Source of the DNA: Candidatus Bathyarchaeota archaeon
Lineage (GTDB): Archaea; Thermoproteota; Bathyarchaeia; Bathyarchaeales; Bathycorpusculaceae
Assembly: GCA_003165195.1 (NCBI GenBank)
Contig: PLSP01000077.1
Span: 1-50,166 of the forward strand
Reading direction: 5' to 3'
Length of the DNA stretch: 50,166 nt
Shown here: in pieces, positions 983 through 38,567 of the stretch
Layout: the number at the start of each line of letters is the position of its first letter
Numbering within the stretch: position 1 is the stretch's first letter
The notes under the pieces: model-generated
The model's input: the letters and a program-made list of their open reading frames with translations, nothing else
The model's database searches: none
Told to the model about the DNA's origin: nothing
Program-made: the position numbers and the translations under genes

Positions 983-1082
983 CTTTTCCCCTTAATCACC
1001 TTAGTAAACGTTTGGAAACCTTATTATCATCACTTTTGCTCTTAAGCCCTTCGCAACCTCTTAGATCTTGGAAGGCAACAGT

Positions 1083-2573
1083 ATGAAAGACATCAAACCT
1101 ACAAGAAGCATATGCCCTGAATGCCTCAAGGCAGTAGACGCCACAATCTACGAAGATGGCGGCAAAGTTTTCATCAAAAAGGACTGCTCTGAGCATGGGC
1201 ACTTTAACGAGCTTTACTGGTCAGACTATGACCAATATGTGCGTGCGGAGAAATATCGTTTTGACGGCGACGGAATTGCTAACCCTAGAACCGAAAAGAA
1301 AAATGGGTGCCCAAACGATTGCGGTATATGCCCAGAACATAAGTCTCACACAGCACTCGCAATAATAGATGTCACAAACAGGTGCAACTTAACCTGCCCC
1401 GTCTGCTTTGCCAATGCTGCTGCAGCAGGCTATGTTTATGAGCCCACAAAAGAGCAAATTATTGGTATGTTGGAGAACCTTCGAGCCAACAAGCCGGTGG
1501 CAGCCACGGCATTGCAGTTCAGCGGCGGAGAGCCAACTATACGCAAAGACCTTCCAGATTTTGTTAGAAAAGCGAAGGAGTTGGGCTTTGACCATATTGA
1601 AGTTAACACGAACGGGCTTCGTCTATCTCAGAGTGTTGAGTACTGCAGGCAACTCAAAGATGCCGGCGTAAGCACCATCTACCTTCAGTTCGACGGTTTA
1701 ACACCTGAAGTTTTCAAGTTTATCCGTGGCGTAGATCTGCTTGAAATAAAAATGAAAGCACTCGAAAACCTCCGAGAAGCAGGCTGGAACAGCGTCGTCT
1801 TGGTTGTAACACTTGTGAAAGGCGTTAACGACGGGCAGCTTGGCGATATCATCAATTTCGCAGCAAAAAATTTCGATGTAATTAGATGCATAAACGTTCA
1901 GCCAGTAAGCCTCTGTGGAAGGCTGCCCCAGAAAGACCGCGAAAACATGCGTATCACAATCCCAGACTTTATGAAGGCAGTCGAAGAGCAAACCGCAGGA
2001 ACAATCAAAGCCTCCGACTTCTACCCGGTGCCCACCGTTGTTCCAGTTTCCAAAGCCGTCGGCGCCCTAAAAGACAAACGTTACTTGGAGTTCACAGCTC
2101 ACCCGCACTGTGGCATGGCAACTTACCTGCTAATTGAAGACGGCAAAATTGTTCCCATCACTCGGTACGGTGATATAGAAAAATTCGTCAAAGTGCTAAA
2201 CAAAGTTTATCTGACAGCATCCAAGGGAAGCAAAACCAAAGCCAAACTACAATTGATTAGCTCTATGCGGCACGTCAAATTCGGATTCCTACGCAAATAC
2301 GTTCTTGGCGTGTTACTAAATGGCGATTACAAATCCCTTGGCGATCTTCAGCGCCAGTCAATTCTGCTTTCATCCATGCACTTTATGGATCCCTACAACT
2401 TTGACCTCGAACGTGTTCAACGCTGCCTAATCCACTACGCTGTCCCAGACGGACGCATAATTCCGTTCTGCACAATGAACTCAATACACCGCGTCGAAGT
2501 AGAAAAGAAACTTGGCGTTCCACTCAAAGATTGGAAAGCACAACATAAGGTTGAAATAAGCCAACCACAATAA
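1083..2573 (+). CDS. Radical SAM protein of the tetraether lipid synthase (Tes / GDGT-MAS) type
   Basis: A 496-residue protein. The radical SAM motif CNLTCPVC places Cys101, Cys105 and Cys108 to bind the catalytic [4Fe-4S] cluster. An N-terminal Cys-rich region has C11-x2-C14, Cys35 and C76-x3-C80-x2-C83. This arrangement, with a long C-terminal part ending in FCTMNSIHR, is what I know from the MJ0619-like family, which couples the two biphytanyl chains of archaeal lipids into tetraethers. The ATG at 1083 is preferred over an upstream TTG at 1068 because GGAAGG lies 7 bases ahead of it. Family membership is fairly secure; the lipid substrate is inferred. Other members of this radical SAM group have different substrates. 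Confidence 0.75.
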   Translation: MKDIKPTRSICPECLKAVDATIYEDGGKVFIKKDCSEHGHFNELYWSDYDQYVRAEKYRFDGDGIANPRTEKKNGCPNDCGICPEHKSHTALAIIDVTNRCNLTCPVCFANAAAAGYVYEPTKEQIIGMLENLRANKPVAATALQFSGGEPTIRKDLPDFVRKAKELGFDHIEVNTNGLRLSQSVEYCRQLKDAGVSTIYLQFDGLTPEVFKFIRGVDLLEIKMKALENLREAGWNSVVLVVTLVKGVNDGQLGDIINFAAKNFDVIRCINVQPVSLCGRLPQKDRENMRITIPDFMKAVEEQTAGTIKASDFYPVPTVVPVSKAVGALKDKRYLEFTAHPHCGMATYLLIEDGKIVPITRYGDIEKFVKVLNKVYLTASKGSKTKAKLQLISSMRHVKFGFLRKYVLGVLLNGDYKSLGDLQRQSILLSSMHFMDPYNFDLERVQRCLIHYAVPDGRIIPFCTMNSIHRVEVEKKLGVPLKDWKAQHKVEISQPQ

Positions 2574-20898: not shown

Positions 20899-21743
20899 TG
20901 CGTTTTTGGAAAATGCATGGATTAGGTAACGATTATATCGTTATCGACAATCGTAACCAAGAAATCAGCGGCAAGCAGGCTGCACAGTTGACTAAGAGGC
21001 TTTGTGAGAGACGTTTTTCGGTTGGGGCAGACGGAATGTTGCTTGTTTCACGTTCCAAGGTGGCTGAGGTCAAGATGCGGATTTTCAACGCAGACGGTAG
21101 CGAAGCTGAAATGTGCGGCAACGGTATACGTTGTTTCTCCAAGTACTGCTACGAAAATGGCATCACAAAGAAGCATGAGTTCACGGTTGAGACGCTTTCA
21201 GGCCTAAAGTCTGTTTGGCTTACCCTTAGCAGTCAAGATGTAGTCTCTGTTAAGGTGGATATGGGTGCGCCGAATTGGGAGCGGAGCAGCATTCCCATGA
21301 CGGGGGAAGGCACCTGTATCAATCAGGATTTAGATGTCAACGGTGAAGTCTTCAAGGTAACTTGCCTCTCAATGGGTAACCCACACTGCGTAATTTTCGT
21401 TGATTGCATCGATTGTTTCCCAGTGGAGGAAATAGGCGCAAAAATTGAAAACCACAAAGCGTTCCCCAAACGAACGAACGTTGGCTTCGTCGAAGTCTTA
21501 AACAAAAGTGAATTAAATGTTCGTGTTTGGGAGAGAGGTTGCGGCGAAACGCTGGCGTGTGGCACTGGAACCTGCGCTGCTGTAGCTGCCGCAAACAAGC
21601 TTGGGCTCGTCGGAGACAAGATTACTGTTCATGTTTTGGGCGGCGACTTGCAAGTTGAAGTTGCTGAGAGCTTGTTTTTGAGTGGGGCAGCTGAGAAAGT
21701 TTTTGAGGGAACGCTGTTTGGAGGACCGCAAAATGTCGTTTGA
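20898..21743 (+). CDS. dapF: Diaminopimelate epimerase
   Basis: A 281-residue cofactor-independent epimerase with both catalytic cysteines: C73 in EMCGNGIRC and the partner in LACGTGTCAA near residue 220. The N-terminus FWKMHGLGNDYIVID is standard. It converts LL- to meso-diaminopimelate, the step needed between DapL and LysA. The ATG overlaps the lysA stop. Confidence 0.96.
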   Translation: MRFWKMHGLGNDYIVIDNRNQEISGKQAAQLTKRLCERRFSVGADGMLLVSRSKVAEVKMRIFNADGSEAEMCGNGIRCFSKYCYENGITKKHEFTVETLSGLKSVWLTLSSQDVVSVKVDMGAPNWERSSIPMTGEGTCINQDLDVNGEVFKVTCLSMGNPHCVIFVDCIDCFPVEEIGAKIENHKAFPKRTNVGFVEVLNKSELNVRVWERGCGETLACGTGTCAAVAAANKLGLVGDKITVHVLGGDLQVEVAESLFLSGAAEKVFEGTLFGGPQNVV

Positions 21744-22893
21744 GTATGCTGATAGGATTAATCGGTTGCCGCCATACCTGTTTGCTGAAATCGAGAAGAT
21801 CATTAAGGAGAAGAAGTCGCAGGGCGTCGACTTGATTTCGCTTAGCATTGGCGATCCTGACCTTCCACCGCCGTCGTTCATCTTGGAGACGCTAAAGAGG
21901 GAAGCTTCAGATCCTAAAAACCACAATTACTCATTTAGCCAAGGTGAACCTGACTTCCGTGAGGCAGTTGTTGGCTGGTATAAGACCCGCTTCAACGTTG
22001 ACCTGCAACAGGACCAAGTGGTGGCGCTTTTAGGTTCTAAAGAAGGTTTAGCAAACATTGCCCGTGCATTCATCAACCCATCTGACCATGTTCTGGTCCC
22101 TGATCCAGCTTACCCAGTATATGCGAACGGCAGCACAATTCTCTGCGACGGCATGGCGGTGCCCATGCCCCTTCTGGAGGAGAACGGTTTTCTACCCAAC
22201 TTTGAAGCCATTGATGCCCGGCAGGTCAAGATGATGTTTCTTAACTACCCGAACAACCCCACTGCCGCAACCATCGATAAGAAGCACCTTAAGCAAGCTG
22301 TCGATTTCGCCAAAGATAACAGAATAGTACTTTGTTACGACAACGCTTACTCAGAAATCACCTATGACGGCTACCAAGCACCAAGCATCTTGGAGATAGA
22401 CGGAGCCATGGATGTGGCTGTTGAATTCCACTCGCTTTCAAAGACTTTTAACATGACCGGTGACCGCATCGGTTTTGCTGTTGGCAACAAGCAACTTGTC
22501 GCTGGATTGACGAAAATTAAGTCGCAAATTGATTCGGGACCGCCCGTTTATACTCAAAAAGTCGCTGTCAAAGCACTTTCAAACTATACTGGCCATCAGC
22601 CGCCCGAGTTCCTGCAAAGAAACAACCAAATTCTCCAAGAACGCCGCGACCTCCTGGTCAACACCCTCTGCCAAATCGGCTACAAATGTGATAAGCCCAA
22701 GGCAACGTTCTATGTCTGGGTTAACTGCAGAGGCGATTCCATGAAGTTCGCAACCAGGTTGTTGGATGTCGGTGTGGCTGTGACGCCGGGCGTAGGCTTC
22801 GGCAAATATGGGGAAGGTTACGCACGCATAACCTTCACTCAGCCCAAAGAACGAATAGCAGAAGCTTGCCAAAGAATAGCCAGTGCCTTCTAG
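21733..22893 (+). CDS. dapL: LL-diaminopimelate aminotransferase
   Basis: A 386-residue fold-type I PLP aminotransferase. The cofactor lysine is K237 in SLSKTFNMTGDRIGFA. Also seen are ISLSIGDPDLPPP and NYPNNPTAA. It converts tetrahydrodipicolinate directly to LL-diaminopimelate, bypassing the succinyl or acetyl steps. The ATG at 21733 is chosen because GAGGAC lies upstream; it overlaps dapF by 11 bases. A start at 21682 would overlap dapF by over 60 bases. No dapD, dapC or dapE is present, which supports the DapL role. Confidence 0.93.
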   Translation: MSFEYADRINRLPPYLFAEIEKIIKEKKSQGVDLISLSIGDPDLPPPSFILETLKREASDPKNHNYSFSQGEPDFREAVVGWYKTRFNVDLQQDQVVALLGSKEGLANIARAFINPSDHVLVPDPAYPVYANGSTILCDGMAVPMPLLEENGFLPNFEAIDARQVKMMFLNYPNNPTAATIDKKHLKQAVDFAKDNRIVLCYDNAYSEITYDGYQAPSILEIDGAMDVAVEFHSLSKTFNMTGDRIGFAVGNKQLVAGLTKIKSQIDSGPPVYTQKVAVKALSNYTGHQPPEFLQRNNQILQERRDLLVNTLCQIGYKCDKPKATFYVWVNCRGDSMKFATRLLDVGVAVTPGVGFGKYGEGYARITFTQPKERIAEACQRIASAF

Positions 22894-23103: not shown

Positions 23104-23144
23104 ATATGTGTTGTATTAAGAGATTAATACAGCGAGGAAAAATT

Positions 23145-24158
23145 ATGGAACGCAGAATAATGTCATTAGGCAGATCCTCAATGGTAATTTCTCTTCCCAA
23201 AAACTGGATGCAACTTAACGCACTAAACAAAGGCGATGTCGTCTCCTTTGCCATCCAACGCGACCGCTCACTGGTAGTCTACCCGAGAGCTGAAAAAAAA
23301 CCCACACCTGAAGAAATAACCATAAAAATAGGCCAAAACGACGACGAAACACTTGTCACACAAAAAATCATCGGAGCATTCCTAAACGGATATTCAGGAA
23401 TCACACTCCTCGGAGAAAAAACCCTCTCCGTCCCCCAACGCAAAGCCATACGCCTCATAACAGGTCGGCTATACATGCGAATCATGGAATCGGACTCCAA
23501 AGGAGTCTACTTGCAAACTTTAACAGACGAGTCAAAAGCCTCGCTTGACCAAGCCATACAAAGAATGCACTTAATTTCATATTCTATGTGTGAAGATGTT
23601 TTTAATGCGTTAAAAAACAACGATATTTCCTTAGCCAAGTCTGTTTTTTCTCAAGACGATGATATTGATCAATTCTACTTTTTTATCTTGAGGATTCTTA
23701 GAAGCGCAGCTCAAGGTCCAATATTGGCTAATGAATTACGTATAGATCCGCTTGACTGTATGGATTACCAGAGCCTCGCGATACTGATAGAGCATGCCGC
23801 TGACTATGTGGCCGACATTGCAAAACATATTGTTATGATTGATGGAATTGGCGAAAAAATCCCTGCTGAGTTGCTTGATCTCATGTTCGATGAAGGCATG
23901 GAAGTTGTTGATTTATACGTTAAAGCGGTCAACGCCTTTTTCCAACGTGACGTCAACTTGTCGGTTGAAATAATCAAACAAATACAACGGATAGAAAAGT
24001 TAGATCAAGAAATAGCTAGCACCACATTTATGAATAAGAAAAAACCGGAGTTAATCTGTGCAGTCTGTTCAATGAGAGAAGATATAAAAAAAATTGCTGT
24101 CTATGCAGCAAATATTTCGGAAGTTACTGTTAATCGTTCCTTTAAGCTTTCTAGTTAG
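23145..24158 (+). CDS. AbrB-PhoU domain regulator
   Basis: A 337-residue protein. Residues about 1-50 are a SpoVT/AbrB-type swapped-hairpin DNA-binding domain (RRIMSLGRSSMVISLPKNW, LNALNKGDVVSFAIQ). Residues about 115-335 hold two PhoU-like helical repeats. This arrangement occurs in archaeal phosphate-linked regulators. No phosphate transporter is nearby, so its signal may differ. The ATG at 23145 is preferred, with AGCGAGG upstream. It converges with the fused dehydrogenase gene, overlapping by 8 bases. Confidence 0.85.
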   Translation: MERRIMSLGRSSMVISLPKNWMQLNALNKGDVVSFAIQRDRSLVVYPRAEKKPTPEEITIKIGQNDDETLVTQKIIGAFLNGYSGITLLGEKTLSVPQRKAIRLITGRLYMRIMESDSKGVYLQTLTDESKASLDQAIQRMHLISYSMCEDVFNALKNNDISLAKSVFSQDDDIDQFYFFILRILRSAAQGPILANELRIDPLDCMDYQSLAILIEHAADYVADIAKHIVMIDGIGEKIPAELLDLMFDEGMEVVDLYVKAVNAFFQRDVNLSVEIIKQIQRIEKLDQEIASTTFMNKKKPELICAVCSMREDIKKIAVYAANISEVTVNRSFKLSS

Positions 24159-25866
24159 ATTTCTTTGCTGGCTGATAGCTTAAAGTCATTGCAAGCTTGC
24201 CCGGTAGCATATCTTTTTCCAGCATTTTTCTTGCCATTGGAAGTGCGGTGTTGTAGTTGTATATTTCTTTGCCGTTGCTTCTTGAGTCGCGGAGAATTTC
24301 TTTTTCAGTTTTGTGTTTTATGTCGCCAACTGTTAATGCGCCGATTACGAATATGCCTGGAAGCATTTCTCTCATGTCGTCTTTAAGTTCGATTCCTTCT
24401 ACGCCGAATGGTGGGACAGCGTTTATGTCTAGAAGGACTTTCATGTTTTTGACGCCGTTTAGCATTTCTTTGTCGATGATTCGGACTCCTTTGACTCCTG
24501 CACACATAATTACGTCTGCTTTGTTGATGATATCAATTTTTGACTGTGGGGTTGGTGCAAATATGCCTTGTACTTGTACGCCATGGTCTTTGGCTAAGAG
24601 TTTGCCTATGCTTTCTGCATGTTCTTTTCCATCTATACGTTTTGGATTTAGGCTGGCAATCATTACTTTGCATCCGAGTTTAGCTAGAAGGACAGCTGCG
24701 ATTTGACCTACTGCACCTGTTCCCATTATTGCGCATGTTTTATCTTTTAGCTCTCCAAGTTTGTTTGCGACTAATGCTGCTTCTGCTTTTGCTACCATGG
24801 CTGCTGCCGTGGTATAGGAGCCCGCTGGGTCAATTATTATGCTTGTTTTGAAGGGTGGGAACATTGAATCTTTTACCGCTTGGAAGACTTCTTCGGCTCT
24901 TTCAGCATTTTTTCCTCCGATTAGGAAGGCAGTGTGCTTAACGCCTTTTGGTCCTCTCGAGAGTAGTGCATCTTGGGTGATGTTTTTTGCATCTTCAGGA
25001 TTTACATCTTGATAGGGGATAACTGCGTCGTAACCTGCATCGTATGCCATGCAAATGTCGAAAGGACTTGCTTTTGCGTCTGTGTCAATGTAAAATAGCA
25101 AGTAAGGTGCTTCTTCTACGCCTTTTCCCATAACTGGTTTAACTTGAATCTGGATTGACTGCAACCAGTTTTCCATTTCAGCTGAGGAAGGAACTTCTGC
25201 GCTGGCTGCAATAACTTTCTTTGAGAGCTTTGCAGTCTCAACTTTGGCATTGAGTGATTCTAACAATTTTTTTGTCCCTGCCATGTGTTCTGGACTGCAG
25301 ATGTGGAGGCAGGTTATTTCTTCTTTTCCCTTAATTTCTCTGGCATGGTTCATGATACCCATGGCTATCCAGCTTTCTCTTATCGAGAAGTTGACTTCCT
25401 GTTGGTGGTCTTCGATTTCAGATTGTAAGCTTTGCCCCAAAGCAATCATGTATTCTTGTTCAATTGTAGTGTCTTCTCGTTTTGATAGGCTGTCTAATGC
25501 TTTTACAACATCATTTCTTTGTTTGATTTTTTTGGCTAAGGCATCGCCGATGTAAGCTTTAGCGTTTGCGTCTATATCGACTCCGAAGTATGGAATGTTG
25601 CTTTTGTGGAATACTTCTGCGATTGCGTCGTTTTGGAAGTCTTGCTGAGAGCGCATGCCCATCTCATCAGTTGTGTAATCTACGTTAACTTTGGATACTA
25701 GGTTTTCCACGAATCTATAGAAGCCTATGGATGATTTTTGCAGTGCTTTAAGTTCGTTTGCGTTTGTTGGTGGCTCGTTAACGTAGAATGGTTCGTTATA
25801 TTCTTTTTCAAGAAGTAAGACGTTGAGTTTCTTTTTCTCTAATGGTTTAAGTTCTAAGGTTTCCAT
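24151..25866 (-). CDS. NAD(P)-dependent methylene-H4MPT dehydrogenase (MtdA/MtdB-like) fused to an unassigned N-terminal domain
   Basis: A 571-residue protein. Residues about 253-571 match the MtdA/MtdB family: YIDTDAKASPFDICMAYDAG, then SIIIDPAGSYTTAAA and the Rossmann motif GTGAVGQIAAVLL (382-394). Those enzymes oxidise methylene-H4MPT (or H4F) with NAD(P). Residues 1 to about 245 are extra. They are helical and acidic, with VDYTTDEMGMRSQQDF, IPYFGVDID and RESWIAMG followed by CLHICSPEHMAGTKKLL, which faintly resembles TraB/ChaN-like domains. Normal MtdA/B proteins are about 290 residues, so this is a true fusion in one frame. It lies downstream of mtd, with operator-like repeats upstream. 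Confidence 0.78.
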   Translation of the reverse strand: METLELKPLEKKKLNVLLLEKEYNEPFYVNEPPTNANELKALQKSSIGFYRFVENLVSKVNVDYTTDEMGMRSQQDFQNDAIAEVFHKSNIPYFGVDIDANAKAYIGDALAKKIKQRNDVVKALDSLSKREDTTIEQEYMIALGQSLQSEIEDHQQEVNFSIRESWIAMGIMNHAREIKGKEEITCLHICSPEHMAGTKKLLESLNAKVETAKLSKKVIAASAEVPSSAEMENWLQSIQIQVKPVMGKGVEEAPYLLFYIDTDAKASPFDICMAYDAGYDAVIPYQDVNPEDAKNITQDALLSRGPKGVKHTAFLIGGKNAERAEEVFQAVKDSMFPPFKTSIIIDPAGSYTTAAAMVAKAEAALVANKLGELKDKTCAIMGTGAVGQIAAVLLAKLGCKVMIASLNPKRIDGKEHAESIGKLLAKDHGVQVQGIFAPTPQSKIDIINKADVIMCAGVKGVRIIDKEMLNGVKNMKVLLDINAVPPFGVEGIELKDDMREMLPGIFVIGALTVGDIKHKTEKEILRDSRSNGKEIYNYNTALPMARKMLEKDMLPGKLAMTLSYQPAKKSN

Positions 25867-25921
25867 TTTGCTAACCTCTGATCTCTGACAATAGCTGATC
25901 TCGAATATATATTTGGTCGAA

Positions 25922-25954
25922 ATACCTTATGTAAAGGTATATATGGTATATACC
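25922..25954 (-). promoter_or_regulatory. Inverted repeats upstream of the fused dehydrogenase gene
   Basis: ATACCTT-ATGTA-AAGGTAT (25922-25940) is a perfect 7-base inverted repeat. GGTATATACC (25945-25954) is a 10-base palindrome five bases on. They lie 56-88 bases before the ATG at 25866 and contain the TATA-like element, so they are probably promoter plus operator and give this gene a separate control from mtd. Confidence 0.5.
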
Positions 25955-25990
25955 AGAGGTTGGTAAAAGATAAAAAAATACGAAAAATGG

Positions 25991-26869
25991 CTAAATATTC
26001 ATTTGAGCGTAGGTTTCTTCATCAAATGTCGGCTGCAGCATCAATCTATTCTTTGTTTTCAATCTGCCATCCTTTGCATGAGGCTTCCGCAAAAGACTAT
26101 CGTTGTATTTTTCGATTTCACGCGCTTCTTCCGCAAGACGAGCAGCTGCCTGAGCGATTTCATGGGCGGCGGCGACAAGCGGAATATACTTTTCGCTCTC
26201 TTTTTCGATAAAACACGCCTGCGTATTGATTTCCGCAACTTTTTCCGCCATTCCGTAGGCCGCGATTGCTTTTGCTCTAGCATATGGGTTGACAAAGAAG
26301 GGTTGGTCACGAATAGTTGTGATGTCAATGATCATCTTTGGCAGTATTGGAGGTTCCCCAGCTTCAAGGGAGTAAACGACCTTGTCAATTTCCTGGTAAA
26401 CAATTCGGTAAACGCCCGTGATCGCTAGTACCTTGTTGATGTTAGAGTTAAAGAGCGCCATTTCAATGGGGTCTAGAAATTCTTTGCGAGCGCCTATTAA
26501 CGGGTCGCCTGTGATTATGAGGTAGCCTAAACCCTGTTTTTCGATGTCTGCTTTGACGCGTTTGCCAGGCGAATCAGTTATGACTATGCCTGGTATTTTT
26601 CTGCTTGACACTGCCTCTCTAGCTGTTGCTGGACCCGGCAACGCAGTATTTGGTGAAATGATGACTGCAATGTCGGGGTTAAACTCAAAGAATTTGGGCA
26701 AGGCTTCCTGGACATCTTCTGCTCCCATTTTTGAACCCGTAGTTACCACTCGAACTTTAATGTCTTTACGGTCAGCCAATTCATCCAAAAGTAACTCGAG
26801 ATTTGGTGATGTGCCTATATTTCCTGCTTTAAAGATTCCAATCTTTTTAGGTGCAACTTGTTCTGCCAA
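25991..26869 (-). CDS. mtd: F420-dependent methylene-H4MPT dehydrogenase
   Basis: A 292-residue protein that matches Mtd along its length: KIGIFKAGNIGTSPNLELLL at the N-terminus, VVTTGSKMGAEDVQ, IISPNTALPGPATAREA, ITGDPLIGARKEFLDPIEM, and FVNPYARAKAIAAYGMAEK. It reduces methenyl-H4MPT with reduced F420. It has no sequence relation to the MtdA/B-type enzyme encoded next to it, although both act at the same C1 oxidation level. It starts with ATG at 26869, 115 bases after the FrhB-like gene. Confidence 0.95.
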   Translation of the reverse strand: MAEQVAPKKIGIFKAGNIGTSPNLELLLDELADRKDIKVRVVTTGSKMGAEDVQEALPKFFEFNPDIAVIISPNTALPGPATAREAVSSRKIPGIVITDSPGKRVKADIEKQGLGYLIITGDPLIGARKEFLDPIEMALFNSNINKVLAITGVYRIVYQEIDKVVYSLEAGEPPILPKMIIDITTIRDQPFFVNPYARAKAIAAYGMAEKVAEINTQACFIEKESEKYIPLVAAAHEIAQAAARLAEEAREIEKYNDSLLRKPHAKDGRLKTKNRLMLQPTFDEETYAQMNI

Positions 26870-26984
26870 ATAAACTCGCTCCGTAACACATTAGGGGAAT
26901 CTTTTTGCTTTTAAAAGTTGCCTAACTTTAGATACAACAAATTTCGTTATACCGCCGCGGATAGATGACTGTTTTTCAGTTATC

Positions 26985-28040
26985 CTATGGCTGAGGTTGA
27001 GTAGTTTTTTTGGTGTCTCTTTTTTTCTTCGTAAGCTTGAGCAACAGACCTTTTGAGAAAGCCGATTCTTCTATCGGTTTTGATTCTAAGAATCCTGTTT
27101 TTTCAGCGTTTGTGAATAGTTCTTCGCCTTTTTCGGTTCGGATAATCGTGAAAGTCCATCCATCCAGTCCTAACCCGCCGACTGAAACATCCGCAAGCTC
27201 AGAGCTGAAGTCTTCACATACACTGCAGCTTGTTCTAACGTACGGTTTTATGTCAGCTAACGGGATGGCTGTGGTTCCAGCGGGCGTCGTCACAAGCATT
27301 TTTCCTTTGATGTTCATTTTTGTTATGTCGCTTAGGTTGATGCCGAGTTTGCCTTTAATGTGGGTTTCCATTAAGCCCTCATAATCAAAGCATTCAGAGC
27401 ACATGAGCCCCACCAAGTACTTTACTGGTGTGCTGAACTTCTTGACAGCGCCCATCTGCATTTTCCTAACGGCGTGAATTTGACATGGTGTGCCTACAAA
27501 GGCAATCTTAGTCTTTTTCTGCTTTATGGCTTCAGGCAAAGCTAGAAGCGCAGAAGAACAGGTATATTTTGTTCCAGCGGATTCAGTAATTTCCTCCAGC
27601 GTCGTTGCGAGAACTGGAATAGGTAAGAACGGTTTGTCTTGGTTTTTTCCAGAGACAACAGCCCCGTCTATCAAGCCACCCTTTAGGGCAGCCACGAGCA
27701 TCGCAGTTGTCGCTCCGCCGTCCTGGCGCGCTTTCAGGATGTCGACAGGTTTAGCCTGCGCAGCAGCTATTCGGCGGTAGACTCCGAATTCTTCCTGCGG
27801 GTTTCTTATTCTACCATAAATGAAGTCTTCGGCTTTATCCATCGCCCACTTGTATCTTGGACAGACTTGGCCACATATGCCGCAGACCTTGCACTCTTTT
27901 ATCAAGCCCGGTTTGCCCTGAGCAAGTTCGAGGCAACCAAAAGGGCAATTGACTACGCACGACCCGCAACTGGCGCATTTTCCAGTTTTCACAACTTCTG
28001 TTAATAATGAGTTTTCAAAACTAGTTTTTTGGGCGCTCAT
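26985..28040 (-). CDS. FrhB-family F420-linked iron-sulfur flavoprotein
   Basis: A 351-residue protein. An N-terminal ferredoxin domain has two [4Fe-4S] motifs (C22, C25, C28, C32 and C50, C53, C56, C60). The FrhB/FdhB domain follows, with RQDGGATTAMLVAALKGGLI, KYTCSSALLAL, FVGTPCQIHAVRKMQ and MCSECFDYEGL. The family oxidises or reduces F420 using FAD and passes electrons to hydrogenase, formate dehydrogenase, Fpo or ferredoxin. No partner subunit is adjacent. It lies upstream of mtd, so F420 cycling for the C1 pathway is the likely role. Confidence 0.88.
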   Translation of the reverse strand: MSAQKTSFENSLLTEVVKTGKCASCGSCVVNCPFGCLELAQGKPGLIKECKVCGICGQVCPRYKWAMDKAEDFIYGRIRNPQEEFGVYRRIAAAQAKPVDILKARQDGGATTAMLVAALKGGLIDGAVVSGKNQDKPFLPIPVLATTLEEITESAGTKYTCSSALLALPEAIKQKKTKIAFVGTPCQIHAVRKMQMGAVKKFSTPVKYLVGLMCSECFDYEGLMETHIKGKLGINLSDITKMNIKGKMLVTTPAGTTAIPLADIKPYVRTSCSVCEDFSSELADVSVGGLGLDGWTFTIIRTEKGEELFTNAEKTGFLESKPIEESAFSKGLLLKLTKKKRDTKKTTQPQP

Positions 28041-28356: not shown

Positions 28357-29400
28357 TTGTCGATAAACGAGAATTTGGAGAAGCTCTCAAACGCTTGTGG
28401 AGTGACAGGCAGAGAAAACGAAGCTAGAGAATTGATGATTAGGCTCATGACCCCCTATGCAGACGAAATAAGGGTGGATAGACTTGAAAACGTTATAGCT
28501 GTCAAGAAAGGTAAAGAAAATGCGCCGAAAATTATGCTGGCTGCCCACATGGATGAAGTAGGGTTAATGGTAAAAACCATCAATAAAGAAGGCTTTTTGC
28601 AGTTCGCAAAAATGGGCGGTATTGACGACCGCATCCTGCCTGCACAGAAAGTAACAGTATTTTCGAGAAAGGGTCCATTCCCAGGGGTAGTTGGTTCCAA
28701 GCCGCCTCATATTCAGAAAGAGGAAGAACGAAAAAAAGTCCTAACTTCAGACGACCTCTTCATTGACATAGGTGCAGAAAACAAGGAAGCCGCCTTGGCG
28801 ATGGGTGTGGCACCAGGAGACCCAGTGGTTTTTGACGTGAAATATGCGTCGCTTGGCAAAGACGTGGTTATGGGGAAAGCTTTCGATAATCGTGCTGGCT
28901 GCGTTACAATGATTGAAGCGCTTAAGTTGATGGAGAAAACTGAATATACAATCTATGCAGTCGGGACTGTTCAAGAAGAGGTTGGGTTGCGTGGTGCTGG
29001 AGCAGCCGCTTTCGGTGTTGATCCAGACCTTGCAATAGCGCTTGATGTAACCATCGCTGGGGACACTCCGGGCGTACGTGAATTTGACACCACCGTTAAG
29101 ATGGGCAAGGGGGCAGCTCTCACAATCAGTGATTCGGGTCTCATTACTTCGTCAAAGATTTTGCGCTGGCTAATAGATTCAGCCGAAGAAGAAAAAATCC
29201 CCTACCAAATCGAAACAGGCTTAATGGGTTCAACTGATGCAGCTCGCATTTCCCTAACACGCCAAGGCATCCCATGTGGCAATGTATCTATACCTACACG
29301 TTACATCCATAGCCCAGTGGGCATCCTAAGTCTAAAAGACATCGAGAACTCCGCCAAACTCACCGTAGCGGCAATAAAAAGAGTCTCAAAGTATTTCTAG
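28357..29400 (+). CDS. M42 family metallo-aminopeptidase
   Basis: A 347-residue protein with all metal ligands of the TET/M42 family: AAHMDEVGLMV, KAFDNRAGC, VQEEVGLRGA, ALDVT and the C-terminal RYIHSPVGILSLKD. It is a dinuclear-metal peptidase, usually a dodecameric TET particle that trims peptides from the proteasome. Some members are labelled endoglucanase in error. The start is TTG at 28357, with AGAGGC 10 bases before. The redox gene follows 14 bases later. Confidence 0.92.
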   Translation: MSINENLEKLSNACGVTGRENEARELMIRLMTPYADEIRVDRLENVIAVKKGKENAPKIMLAAHMDEVGLMVKTINKEGFLQFAKMGGIDDRILPAQKVTVFSRKGPFPGVVGSKPPHIQKEEERKKVLTSDDLFIDIGAENKEAALAMGVAPGDPVVFDVKYASLGKDVVMGKAFDNRAGCVTMIEALKLMEKTEYTIYAVGTVQEEVGLRGAGAAAFGVDPDLAIALDVTIAGDTPGVREFDTTVKMGKGAALTISDSGLITSSKILRWLIDSAEEEKIPYQIETGLMGSTDAARISLTRQGIPCGNVSIPTRYIHSPVGILSLKDIENSAKLTVAAIKRVSKYF

Positions 29401-31167: not shown

Positions 31168-31815
31168 TTATGGCAGCATCGATGCTCCGATGTATGTTGC
31201 TGCTATGTTAAAGTGGTCGATGTCCTGTCTTGAAGTCGCCAAATAAATTGTTAAGGTTGTGTTTTCGCCGCTGTTTAAGAACGTGTTTGCGCCTCCGTTG
31301 GTAAATCCATAGGGCGGTGTTACATCAGTCGCGGCGATGACGTTTCCATGTTTATCGTAGATTTGGGCTGTGAGATAAACGTAGACATGTGAGTAATTGG
31401 TGGTGTAGGTTTCGCCATTTGGCAAAATCATTGTCGGTTGATTCGGGGGGAGGTTCTGGTCCGTGTAATCGTTTCTTATTGTAACGTTTACAATAAAGCA
31501 GGAATCTCCTCTTTCGATAACCGGCGTTGGGACTGGCCCATTTGGTGAGCCTAATGGAGAAGCTGATGCAAAAGGGTAGGTGCCATATGCTGAGGTTACG
31601 GTTGTCACGAGGATTTTGCTATCTCCTCCAGAAGGCAACGGCAGATAATAGGGTGTAACTTGAGAGCTGGCTGCTCCCGAGGGCACTGTTGGAATATGAT
31701 TCGCTGACGAGGAAAGAACTATGAAAACCAAAACTCCAGAAACTACCAACGCCATCAAAACTGCACTAAGCAGAAGCTTTTTCTTTTTGCTTTTTGGCTG
31801 ATTCTCAGTCGCCAT
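31168..31815 (-). CDS. Membrane-anchored extracellular protein
   Basis: A 215-residue protein starting with ATG at 31815 behind AAGGAGAG. Residues about 8-30 are a basic stretch followed by a single membrane segment (LLLSAVLMALVVSGVLVFIV). The rest is Thr/Pro/Asn-rich and beta-like (FIVNVTIRNDYTDQNLPPNQ), as in immunoglobulin-like archaeal surface domains such as the DUF4352 type. The fold is inferred. Most of the protein should face outside. Confidence 0.7.
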   Translation of the reverse strand: MATENQPKSKKKKLLLSAVLMALVVSGVLVFIVLSSSANHIPTVPSGAASSQVTPYYLPLPSGGDSKILVTTVTSAYGTYPFASASPLGSPNGPVPTPVIERGDSCFIVNVTIRNDYTDQNLPPNQPTMILPNGETYTTNYSHVYVYLTAQIYDKHGNVIAATDVTPPYGFTNGGANTFLNSGENTTLTIYLATSRQDIDHFNIAATYIGASMLP

Positions 31816-31952
31816 TTCCCGTCTCTCCTTGGGCAAAATAGCGTCTCTATGTCTTAAGCCTATTCTTTAGCGCTCATGCAAAAGAGGAATTATCAGTTTT
31901 TGCTGAAGCAAAGCTTATGGATGCCACCGCAGTAACCTCATAGGCGATTCAC

Positions 31953-36812: not shown

Positions 36813-37343
36813 TTGCTTGAGCGAACAGTCCCATTAGAAATCGACAAGGCGTACGCAGATTTGAAAAAGGCTCTTTTGGCTAAGGACAGCAAATTAATCT
36901 CTGAAGAGGTGCCAAACCAAATTGTGGTTAAGCAGGGTTCACTGTGGGGAATATCGCCAGCGAGCGCAAAGAAAACCGTTAAAACGAACTTGACAAAGAT
37001 CGATTCAGCAACAAAAGTAACTTGTACAACACAGCTTAGTTCAGACTGGAAAAACATAACAATTATCGGCTGCGTGTTTGCGGCAGTTCTTGTAGCGATC
37101 TGCCTTTGGATAACCTTTGACTTGAACACATTCATGGTTACTCATAGCGTGAGTTTTTGGAGTTGGCTAATAACCACAAATGGCGCCGCAGATTTTCAGA
37201 TAGGGACAGCCTTTATAGGATTAACAAAGGCTCTTGCGCTTTTCCTCTCGGTAATCATAGTCGTTGAAATTGCCATTTTCGTTTACGTTAAAGCAAAAAT
37301 TGATAGCTTTGCACAGGATGTGCTCAATTGTTTTGTTGGCTGA
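36813..37343 (+). CDS. Hypothetical membrane protein with two helices
   Basis: A 176-residue protein starting with TTG at 36813. Residues about 1-78 form a soluble alpha/beta domain (EIDKAYADLKKALLAKDSKL, VVKQGSLWGISPASAKKTV). Two membrane segments follow (ITIIGCVFAAVLVAICLWI and ALALFLSVIIVVEIAIFVYV) with a loop of about 40 residues. No enzyme motif. It converges with the transglutaminase-like gene 3 bases away. Confidence 0.6.
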   Translation: MLERTVPLEIDKAYADLKKALLAKDSKLISEEVPNQIVVKQGSLWGISPASAKKTVKTNLTKIDSATKVTCTTQLSSDWKNITIIGCVFAAVLVAICLWITFDLNTFMVTHSVSFWSWLITTNGAADFQIGTAFIGLTKALALFLSVIIVVEIAIFVYVKAKIDSFAQDVLNCFVG

Positions 37344-37345
37344 TT

Positions 37346-38428
37346 TTAACCTATCTTTTTCCCGCATGTCTCGCAGTAAACGGCAAACGATTTGTTACTT
37401 GCGCCACAATAAATGCAGAATTTGCTGCTTTCAACCGCGGAGTTCGACTCTGATGGTAGAGTTCGCGGTTGCCTTGCGTTTTTTGCTGACATTACAGTAA
37501 CTGCGATAGCGGCTCCAATTGCAATAATGATAACGGTAAAGAGAAGGGGATCTTTCGAAATTAAGTCAAGTGATATAGGCGCGATAGGTACAGCGTTTGG
37601 CCCTTCTGCTCCAGGCGTAGGAGTTGGATTATTACTATTTGTATTGGGATCGATAGTTGGGTTAGGTTGACCATAAGAATTTGATTGAAGATCAACTATG
37701 TACTGTAGTGTTGTATCAATGCCGTAAGCATAAGCACTTTGACCATTGAACTCGGTTGGGAGCTGGCCAATCGTAAAGCCGCTTCCTGTGGTCTCACAGT
37801 AATAGTAGTTTTGGTTTTGGTATGTCCAGTAGGTTCCTGAAAGATTGTCTCCCAATATTCCTACAGCTAGGTGGTCTGGCGGATTAATGAATATGGCCCC
37901 GTAACCAAGCATGATACTTAAAGTTGCAAACAGCACTGAGTGGCTTTTGCAGTCGCCTATGTCGTCAACTAACGTTTCAACTGGAAACCTTGGGTAATCC
38001 TGATAGCCTGTGCTGTTTGCGTCAGTTGCATATGGTATGCTCTGTACAAAGGATAAGACAAAATTCAATTCATCTAACGAACTGTATCCATATTGATGGG
38101 CGGTGCTGTTTAGGTTTTGAGCTAACTGCTGCATAAAAGAATCGCTTGTCGTGGTGAAGTAACCAAACCTTGAAAGTGGTATTTGAGTGCGTACGTCGTC
38201 CTGAACTGATTGGTAAGCATTGAAGAGGTTTGCTGGAATACTTAGATTCCATACCCAGTGATGTCCGCCGTAATCCCAAACGAATTGCTTATCGTATTGT
38301 TGACTATTATTTGTGCTTTGAGCAGAAACTGTTTGGAATGGTCGAGTCATTGGTGACAGAACAACCATTGCCAATGTAAAGATAAGCAGCAGCTTAACGG
38401 GTTTGCTGTTCAGCAATAATCTGCTCAT
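37346..38428 (-). CDS. Exported transglutaminase-like protein with C-terminal zinc ribbon
   Basis: A 360-residue protein. A signal peptide is at residues about 1-33 (LLLIFTLAMVVLSPMT, then TVSAQS). The middle is a transglutaminase-like cysteine-protease fold with DDIGDCKSHSVLFATLSIM (catalytic Cys) and NPPDHLAVGI (catalytic His). Near the end there is one membrane helix (LFTVIIIAIGAAIAVTVM) and a zinc ribbon (FCIYCGAS, CETCGKKIG). The enzyme domain should lie outside and the ribbon inside. ATG at 38428 is preferred over 38485 because it gives a proper signal peptide. Confidence 0.8.
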   Translation of the reverse strand: MSRLLLNSKPVKLLLIFTLAMVVLSPMTRPFQTVSAQSTNNSQQYDKQFVWDYGGHHWVWNLSIPANLFNAYQSVQDDVRTQIPLSRFGYFTTTSDSFMQQLAQNLNSTAHQYGYSSLDELNFVLSFVQSIPYATDANSTGYQDYPRFPVETLVDDIGDCKSHSVLFATLSIMLGYGAIFINPPDHLAVGILGDNLSGTYWTYQNQNYYYCETTGSGFTIGQLPTEFNGQSAYAYGIDTTLQYIVDLQSNSYGQPNPTIDPNTNSNNPTPTPGAEGPNAVPIAPISLDLISKDPLLFTVIIIAIGAAIAVTVMSAKNARQPRTLPSESNSAVESSKFCIYCGASNKSFAVYCETCGKKIG

Positions 38429-38567
38429 GAGGGGTTTTTCACCATTCGGTATTTGGTGCACCCAAGCGTTTAAAACTTCCCCCAAATCTTATCCAAAGCT
38501 CTGCTGTCCAGCAATTGATCAGCAATTAAAGTTAAGCAACATTGCTTAAACCGGCGTTTTGAAGACG

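Follow-up and report, generated by a model that had tools for sequence, protein, structure and literature searches.

Bathyarchaeia abound in anoxic sediment, and it is unsettled how they connect their one-carbon (C1) pathway on tetrahydromethanopterin (H4MPT) to NAD(P), coenzyme F420, and ferredoxin. The closest described enzymes are the F420-dependent methylene-H4MPT dehydrogenase of methanogens, Mtd (PDB 1qv9), and the MtdA/MtdB enzymes of methylotrophic bacteria, which consist of a single domain of approximately 290 amino acids (aa) (PDB 1lu9, 6tlk, and 6tge). An MtdB-type enzyme has already been published for Bathyarchaeia (PMC7886697); the one in subgroup Bathy-6 is described there as closer to the NADH-dependent homologue known from methylotrophic bacteria. 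In a study of Bathyarchaeum tardum, NAD+ and ferredoxin are inferred to take up the electrons from methylene oxidation (PMC10477458). We analyzed a 50,166-nt stretch of a Candidatus Bathyarchaeota genome (contig PLSP01000077.1; the whole stretch is called the window), in which genes of both dehydrogenase families lie side by side. One of them encodes an MtdA/MtdB-type protein of 571 aa, for which we coined the label MtdBx in this analysis and which joins an MtdA-fold part to an undescribed N-terminal domain. This domain tracks one partner enzyme, Mtd, across the class, and two alternatives, a putative F420-plus-NAD(P) module and one short enzyme of the NAD(P) type, replace each other naturally within genera. 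We propose, with about even confidence, that the locus is an electron-routing module connecting ferredoxin, F420, methylene-H4MPT, and NAD(P) in that order, that is, an F420/NAD(P) bridge. The locus offers a specific, testable answer on C1-cofactor linkage, and a bare annotation of either gene as "methylene-H4MPT dehydrogenase" masks the choice of cofactor.

Our searches of the PMC literature, with supplements and most subscription journals outside their scope, returned no recognized account of a 571-aa MtdB or of an archaeal Mtd/MtdB pair. The long form, its N-terminal domain, its association with Mtd, and the exchange at one site are apparently new, none of them having been met in the literature searched. 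The initial annotation of this DNA, made from the letters alone, described two unrelated methylene-H4MPT dehydrogenases side by side with an FrhB-like protein upstream; the three open reading frames (ORFs) lie at the coordinates given, all on the minus strand, and domain matches (PF01993 and NF002162, Mpt_N, and FrhB_FdhB, respectively) bore out the families. The MtdB-type protein was placed in the right family but is much longer than the annotation conveyed. The annotation also mentioned neither the N-terminal domain nor the linked PhoU-like gene, the exchange with a short MtdB, or the absence of any CofH match from the genome that contains the window (G000; G- and L-numbers denote genomes of the class and fetched loci).

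By its sequence, the Mtd ORF is a member of the F420-dependent Mtd family. It scored 381.5 bits against PF01993 (cut-off, 25) and 376.5 bits against NF002162, the NCBIfam equivalog for F420-dependent Mtd (cut-off, 297), and the solved Mtd 1qv9 aligned to residues 12-280 of its 292 (E 2.4e-79). As a homologue above the equivalog cut-off it resembles the methanogen enzyme, from which it differs in having a predicted NAD(P)-type isoenzyme as its neighbor. In MtdBx, Mpt_N (PF09176) matched with 99.4 bits (cut-off, 27) at residues 268-348 only, and the structures of M. extorquens MtdA matched residues 255-549. A Foldseek comparison of the predicted structure of the C-terminal part with 6tlk_B gave an E value of 2.6e-23 and a target template modeling (TM) score of 0.93. 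The alignment showed that the glycine-rich motif GTGAVG is kept and that Lys517, invariant in 21/21 sequences, corresponds to MtdA Lys256, which we take to be catalytic. MtdBx therefore shares the catalytic fold, Mpt_N, the glycine-rich motif, and the lysine with the bacterial enzymes; it differs from them in its length, its unrelated N-terminal domain, and a changed loop.

This loop follows the second Rossmann strand and reads GRK in MtdA, where, by analogy with Rossmann enzymes in general, it probably holds the NADP phosphate. GRK is absent from MtdBx, and the long forms of our alignment (A1) carry S-x-N-P-x-R in its place (SLNPKR in the window), with Ser405, Asn407, Pro408, and Arg410 invariant in 21/21 sequences. 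In the short MtdB proteins that were aligned, the loop is of the SR type, and the copy of G208, the earliest branch within the long clade, has SRS. MtdBx is likely an NAD(P) enzyme, judging from its family and glycine-rich motif, and to this extent the use of NAD(P) asserted in the initial annotation holds. However, because GRK has been replaced, family membership does not settle the choice between NAD and NADP.

To place these genes within the class, we screened 256 genomes, of which 108 had an Mpt_N match and 124 an Mtd match. Genomes with a frame of at least 560 aa were classed as long (39 genomes) and those with frames of <400 aa as short-only (67 genomes). The latter include G064, G065, and G068, whose genes belong to the long lineage but lack the N-terminal domain, as well as G091 and G139, whose frames are partial. 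The N-domain alignment was confirmed in fetched loci and profile-scan matches; G111 and G135 were classed as long by frame length alone. Two of the 108 genomes dropped out of the comparison, namely G182 (the L031 frame) and G183, both of which have Mtd; their mid-length frames look like scaffold joins, with runs of N in or beside the frame.

Mtd was present in 36 of the 39 long-frame genomes and absent from 66 of the 67 short-only genomes. For the N-domain form proper, the count was 35/38, with G144 taken out because its frame is an Mtd-MtdB fusion without the N-domain. As these class-wide counts are uncorrected for kinship, which inflates significance, we compared genomes within genera: in the five genera that contain both states (g1, g9, g17, g31, and g38), Mtd accompanied 9/10 long frames and 0/38 short frames. 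The co-occurrence spans several families of one order, as well as G208 outside that order. A profile of the N-domain, run over 398 genomes drawn evenly from the phylum with the class included, matched in 14 genomes, all of the window's order. The N-domain form thus tracks Mtd, with G154, G158, G165, G064/G065, and G068 as exceptions.

The initial annotation had suggested looking for the same gene pair in other Bathyarchaeia, and the pair does occur there. When named genomes of bacteria and archaea were scanned with patterns from one sequence, which reach close relatives only, 21 relatives of MtdBx were returned, all of them in Bathyarchaeota. Homology extended over nearly the full length in 20 of these loci; in the remaining one, L019, the match was confined to residues 235-571, apparently through the same scaffold join as in L031. 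Mtd adjoins the long MtdB in 17/21 named loci (15 co-directional and 2 divergent), and the two matches are adjacent on one contig in 30 of the 36 genomes that have Mtd and a long frame; the named loci and class genomes overlap, several contigs being identical, and the two linkage counts are not independent. Together with the co-occurrence, they make the pairing more than coincidence. Two of the loci that carry the pair, L017 and L018, are titled Candidatus Bathyarchaeum sp. A locus from another genus, L127, likewise shows the order FrhB-Mtd-MtdBx-PhoU. DVMM_5 has two long copies, of which one adjoins Mtd and the other, on a 4.4-kb contig, does not (L001 and L002).

The same chromosomal site can hold a different gene. 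In G085, from the same genus as G000, a single short MtdB gene lies between the M42 peptidase and aminotransferase genes, where the window has FrhB-Mtd-MtdBx-PhoU. Similarly, in genus g9, the cluster of G113 and the short MtdB gene of G116 each lie near an M42 peptidase gene. Eight short-form loci (L090-L095, L101, and L125; 8 of the 67 genomes) had no PhoU-like, Mtd, or FrhB-like match, and the M42 peptidase was within 2 kb in 6/8 of them. These short proteins, presumably those meant in PMC7886697, belong to the same family as MtdBx and occur near the same peptidase; they are mostly frames of 300-360 aa that lack the N-domain, have the SR-type loop in those aligned, and are found in genomes with no Mtd (66/67). 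Where genomes have Mtd but no Mpt_N match, an FrhB-like gene also occurs beside Mtd (L059, L063, and L067). It was found within the 1.5-kb flanks in 5 of 30 such Mtd loci, whereas a PhoU-like gene was found in 0/30. Because the FrhB-like gene accompanies Mtd elsewhere and no PhoU-like gene does so there, the cluster seems to combine an FrhB-Mtd unit with an MtdBx-PhoU unit.

In G144, one 590-aa ORF joins Mtd to an MtdB part from which the N-domain is missing (L043, 646-2418; L123). This frame may be a real fusion, a decaying locus, or an assembly error. We dropped it as evidence of interaction, since it is a single case, its junction falls at a seemingly shared short stretch, and the PhoU-like match is in three pieces.

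In a tree of 53 C-terminal parts, nine short forms made up one clade and the long forms a separate one; the row L031 (G182) is labeled short although it is an apparent scaffold join. Copies lacking the N-domain occurred within the long clade in G064/G065, without Mtd, and in G068, with Mtd. At L024 (G065) and L042 (G064), a short MtdB-type gene and one of the long lineage without the N-domain lie back to back; the latter copies have an acidic residue at the nucleotide loop (AEPNP), and neither genome has an Mtd match. At L089 (5392-7376; G068), the gene lacking the N-domain overlaps by 4 nt an ORF that resembles, by eye, a malate/lactate dehydrogenase, apparently in a different operon.

Residues 1-250 of MtdBx gave a confident AlphaFold2 (AF2) model (37 sequences; mean predicted local distance difference test [pLDDT], 90.0) with a mixed alpha/beta architecture and two long helices. 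The window's N-domain had no Pfam match even at E 10. When 37 members of the domain were compared with Pfam at E<=10, 63 families were returned; each of the 25 among the matches listed was hit in at most 7 members, and these matches, including RdRP (best, 9.3e-5) and glutaredoxin (0.011), were taken as chance. A sequence-profile search of the PDB gave three rows (best E, 0.18), and a fold search of the PDB gave 0 matches at E<=0.001 and 324 at E<=10; no fold was assigned, as the best match had an E value of 0.061 and a TM score of <0.3.

The one likeness that emerged was to the TraB/PrgY/TIKI family (PF01963). When the N-domain was compared by hhalign with a profile built from just three sequences, TraB-like proteins of the class, the score was 39.7 (probability 70, E 3.9e-5, 45 columns), and 60 column-shuffled decoys scored at most 23.1. 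The order of secondary structure elements, compared by eye, and a HVxGxKKLL-like motif agree with this likeness. However, the GTxH motif of the first strand is missing from the window's N-domain, which has EKEYNEPF in that place (GTAH is present in L114, L116, and L117), and PF01963 (TraB_PrgY_gumN) is missing among the matches listed (25 of the 63 families) for the 37 members. As for the TraB-like proteins, those of G191 and G026, and not that of G025, exceeded the PF01963 cut-off; the family matched in 1/41 genomes of relatives and 2/101 genomes of the phylum. We suggest, very tentatively, that the N-domain may be TraB/TIKI-derived and non-catalytic. Most likely, it serves in docking or regulation and acts together with Mtd; contact between the two enzymes is presumed. 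In G208, a free-standing 247-aa N-domain ORF lies directly before, and overlaps, a full-length MtdBx ORF (L082, 4464-5204).

The other two genes of the cluster suggest how the pair might be supplied with electrons and controlled (Table 1). The FrhB-like protein has the FrhB_FdhB_N and _C domains and a ferredoxin-like N-terminus with a weak Fer4_9 match (20 bits; cut-off, 27), and it falls below the frhB equivalog cut-off (225.7 versus 331.5); it is not FrhB proper, and the label "FrhB-like" was well chosen. Its closest solved structure is 8riu_B (E 5.7e-58), a carbon monoxide dehydrogenase (CODH) subunit of an ethane oxidizer with N-terminal ferredoxin and F420-reductase domains (PMC11493965). 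The copy in the window differs from this nearest solved relative in being linked to Mtd, and we propose that it may exchange electrons between ferredoxin and F420. The PhoU-like gene is convergent with the MtdBx gene, the end of which it overlaps by 8 nt. It lies beside MtdBx in 19/21 named loci; in L019 it is in pieces, and in L001, where the contig ends approximately 0.8 kb further on, it was not seen. Its product is a candidate regulator.

Table 1. Coordinates of the genes and domains of the Mtd-MtdBx locus and of its flanking syntenic anchors in the window.
Feature	Coordinates	Strand	Basis
FrhB-like F420 oxidoreductase, 351 aa	26985..28040	-	PF04432 and PF04422 over cut-off
Mtd, F420-dependent methylene-H4MPT dehydrogenase family, 292 aa	25991..26869	-	PF01993, NF002162, 1qv9
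MtdBx, long MtdA/MtdB-type protein, 571 aa, two parts	24151..25866	-	Mpt_N PF09176, MtdA structures
MtdBx N-terminal domain, residues 1-250, undescribed	25117..25866	-	AF2 model; no Pfam or PDB match
MtdBx MtdA-fold catalytic part (predicted), residues 251-571 and stop	24151..25116	-	Foldseek, alignment; GTGAVG, Lys517
PhoU-like protein with AbrB/MazE-type N-terminal domain	23106..24158	+	PF04014 and PF01895
Syntenic anchor, LL-diaminopimelate aminotransferase-like	21682..22893	+	Family match, same-genus comparison
Syntenic anchor, M42 peptidase	28357..29400	+	Family match, same-genus comparison

In the bridge that we favor, the FrhB-like protein would exchange electrons between ferredoxin and F420, Mtd would exchange hydride between F420 and the H4MPT-bound C1 unit, and MtdBx would do so between this C1 unit and NAD(P). 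Methylene/methenyl-H4MPT in catalytic amounts would then suffice to bring F420H2 and NAD(P)H into equilibrium in cells that lack Fno, and during methyl oxidation (or CO2 reduction) the cell could pick the pool that takes (or gives) the electrons. Mtd might work in the reductive direction and MtdBx in the oxidative one, or both in the oxidative direction during the burning of methyl groups; the N-domain would dock or regulate with Mtd, and the PhoU-like protein would regulate. The potentials are approximately -350 mV for F420, -320 mV for NADP, and approximately -390 mV for methenyl/methylene-H4MPT, so that electrons could, on balance, feasibly pass from F420H2 to NADP+ by way of the C1 carrier.

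Fno (NpdG), the F420H2:NADP+ oxidoreductase, would do the same net job as the proposed pair, although by direct hydride transfer within one protein, unlike the route through Mtd and MtdBx. No Fno match exceeded the cut-off in the 39 long-frame genomes, and the best match in G000 was weak (6.0e-6). The pair perhaps stands in for Fno; this absence and the shared fate of Mtd and MtdBx fit the bridge. The initial annotation had likewise proposed an F420/NAD(P) bridge; the idea is compatible with the lack of Fno and with the co-occurrence, the catalysis itself being what we infer. As to the surrounding pathway, G000 encodes Mch, CdhC, an FwdB-family protein, and CofD, and Mer was matched only far below the cut-off. 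A stronger version, which we consider unlikely, is that Mtd and MtdBx form a physical pair docked through the possibly TraB-derived domain and pass methenyl/methylene-H4MPT between their sites, so that they would act as a C1-carrier F420:NAD(P) transhydrogenase fed with ferredoxin electrons by the FrhB-like protein. We know of no precedent for such a mechanism.

Several observations weigh against the bridge. Long frames without an Mtd match occurred in G154 (76% complete), G158 (98%), and G165 (95%), and Mtd accompanied a short frame in G068, where Mtd is split by scaffold gaps and the MtdB gene is of the long lineage without the N-domain. Absences in incomplete genomes may be gaps. In 85 genomes, Mtd occurs with no Mpt_N match, Mtd and MtdBx are on different contigs in 6/36 genomes, and the GRK loop of MtdA is not conserved. 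Fno exceeded the cut-off in just 42 of the 256 class genomes, and because it is rare in the whole class, its absence from the long-frame genomes is weak support.

The supply of F420 is also doubtful, and it underlies the main alternative, a cofactor backup, which we judge somewhat unlikely: cells without de novo F420 synthesis would use Mtd with scavenged FO or F420 and MtdBx as an NAD(P)-dependent substitute in the same direction, with no exchange between pools. FO synthase CofH had no match in G000 at E<=0.001 and exceeded the cut-off in 1/46 genomes tested (G208; 1/39 long-frame genomes), as against 3/14 control genomes, and CofD was matched in 17/39 long-frame genomes and unmatched in 22/39. 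Furthermore, a cultured Bathyarchaeia metagenome-assembled genome was reported to lack F420 synthesis (PMC10989822), and the short-MtdB genomes, with one exception among 67, manage without Mtd. On the other hand, 29 of the other 45 genomes had CofH matches below the cut-off (strong but partial in G158, 8.7e-19; <26 bits in the rest), making its absence there uncertain; F420 synthesis was judged here from CofH and CofD, and F420 biosynthesis genes have been reported for Bathy-6 (PMC7886697). In view of these gaps, F420 may be salvaged, or the route to FO may have gone unrecognized. Mtd is also present in many genomes of the class that have no CofD match. A backup would, moreover, have no need of an extra domain that tracks Mtd, since a short MtdB would suffice. 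We favor the bridge over the backup because a cell that needs only an F420-free route has a short MtdB in place of the whole cluster.

The large extra domain, the S-x-N-P-x-R loop in place of GRK, and the PhoU/AbrB-like neighbor would also fit a long form that has taken on another function, for instance with a different pterin or folate as substrate or with a regulatory role for the N-domain, and has stayed beside Mtd for coordinated regulation only; MtdA is reported to react with either tetrahydrofolate or H4MPT (PMC9012536). The core of the C-terminal part, including the equivalent of Lys256, is nevertheless kept, its fold match to MtdA is close, and the association with Mtd is strong, and we consider such a drift improbable. 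Alternation of the cluster with a short MtdB at one site within a genus might instead reflect transfer of a cassette in which linkage persists although the genes are not functionally coupled. This we think very improbable, given that the six genomes with Mtd and MtdBx on different contigs keep both genes, that the orientation differs in L017 and L018, and that the co-occurrence extends over several families and beyond the order.

A foreign contig is unlikely, although the contamination of the bin is 5.49%, because 11 flanking genes show 66-88% protein identity to those of the same-genus genome G085 and the same pair occurs in G096, also of this genus; even a foreign contig would leave the class-wide result unchanged. 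An NCBIfam HemA match at the locus was rejected as a Rossmann cross-match far below its own cut-off. Elsewhere in the window, the ORFs at 37349-38485 (-), 31171-31836 (-), and 36813-37343 (+) had no Pfam match at E 0.001. The same contig also encodes, at 1068-2573 (+), a radical SAM protein with an HMPTM zinc ribbon, which is presumably a pterin methylase of methanopterin synthesis.

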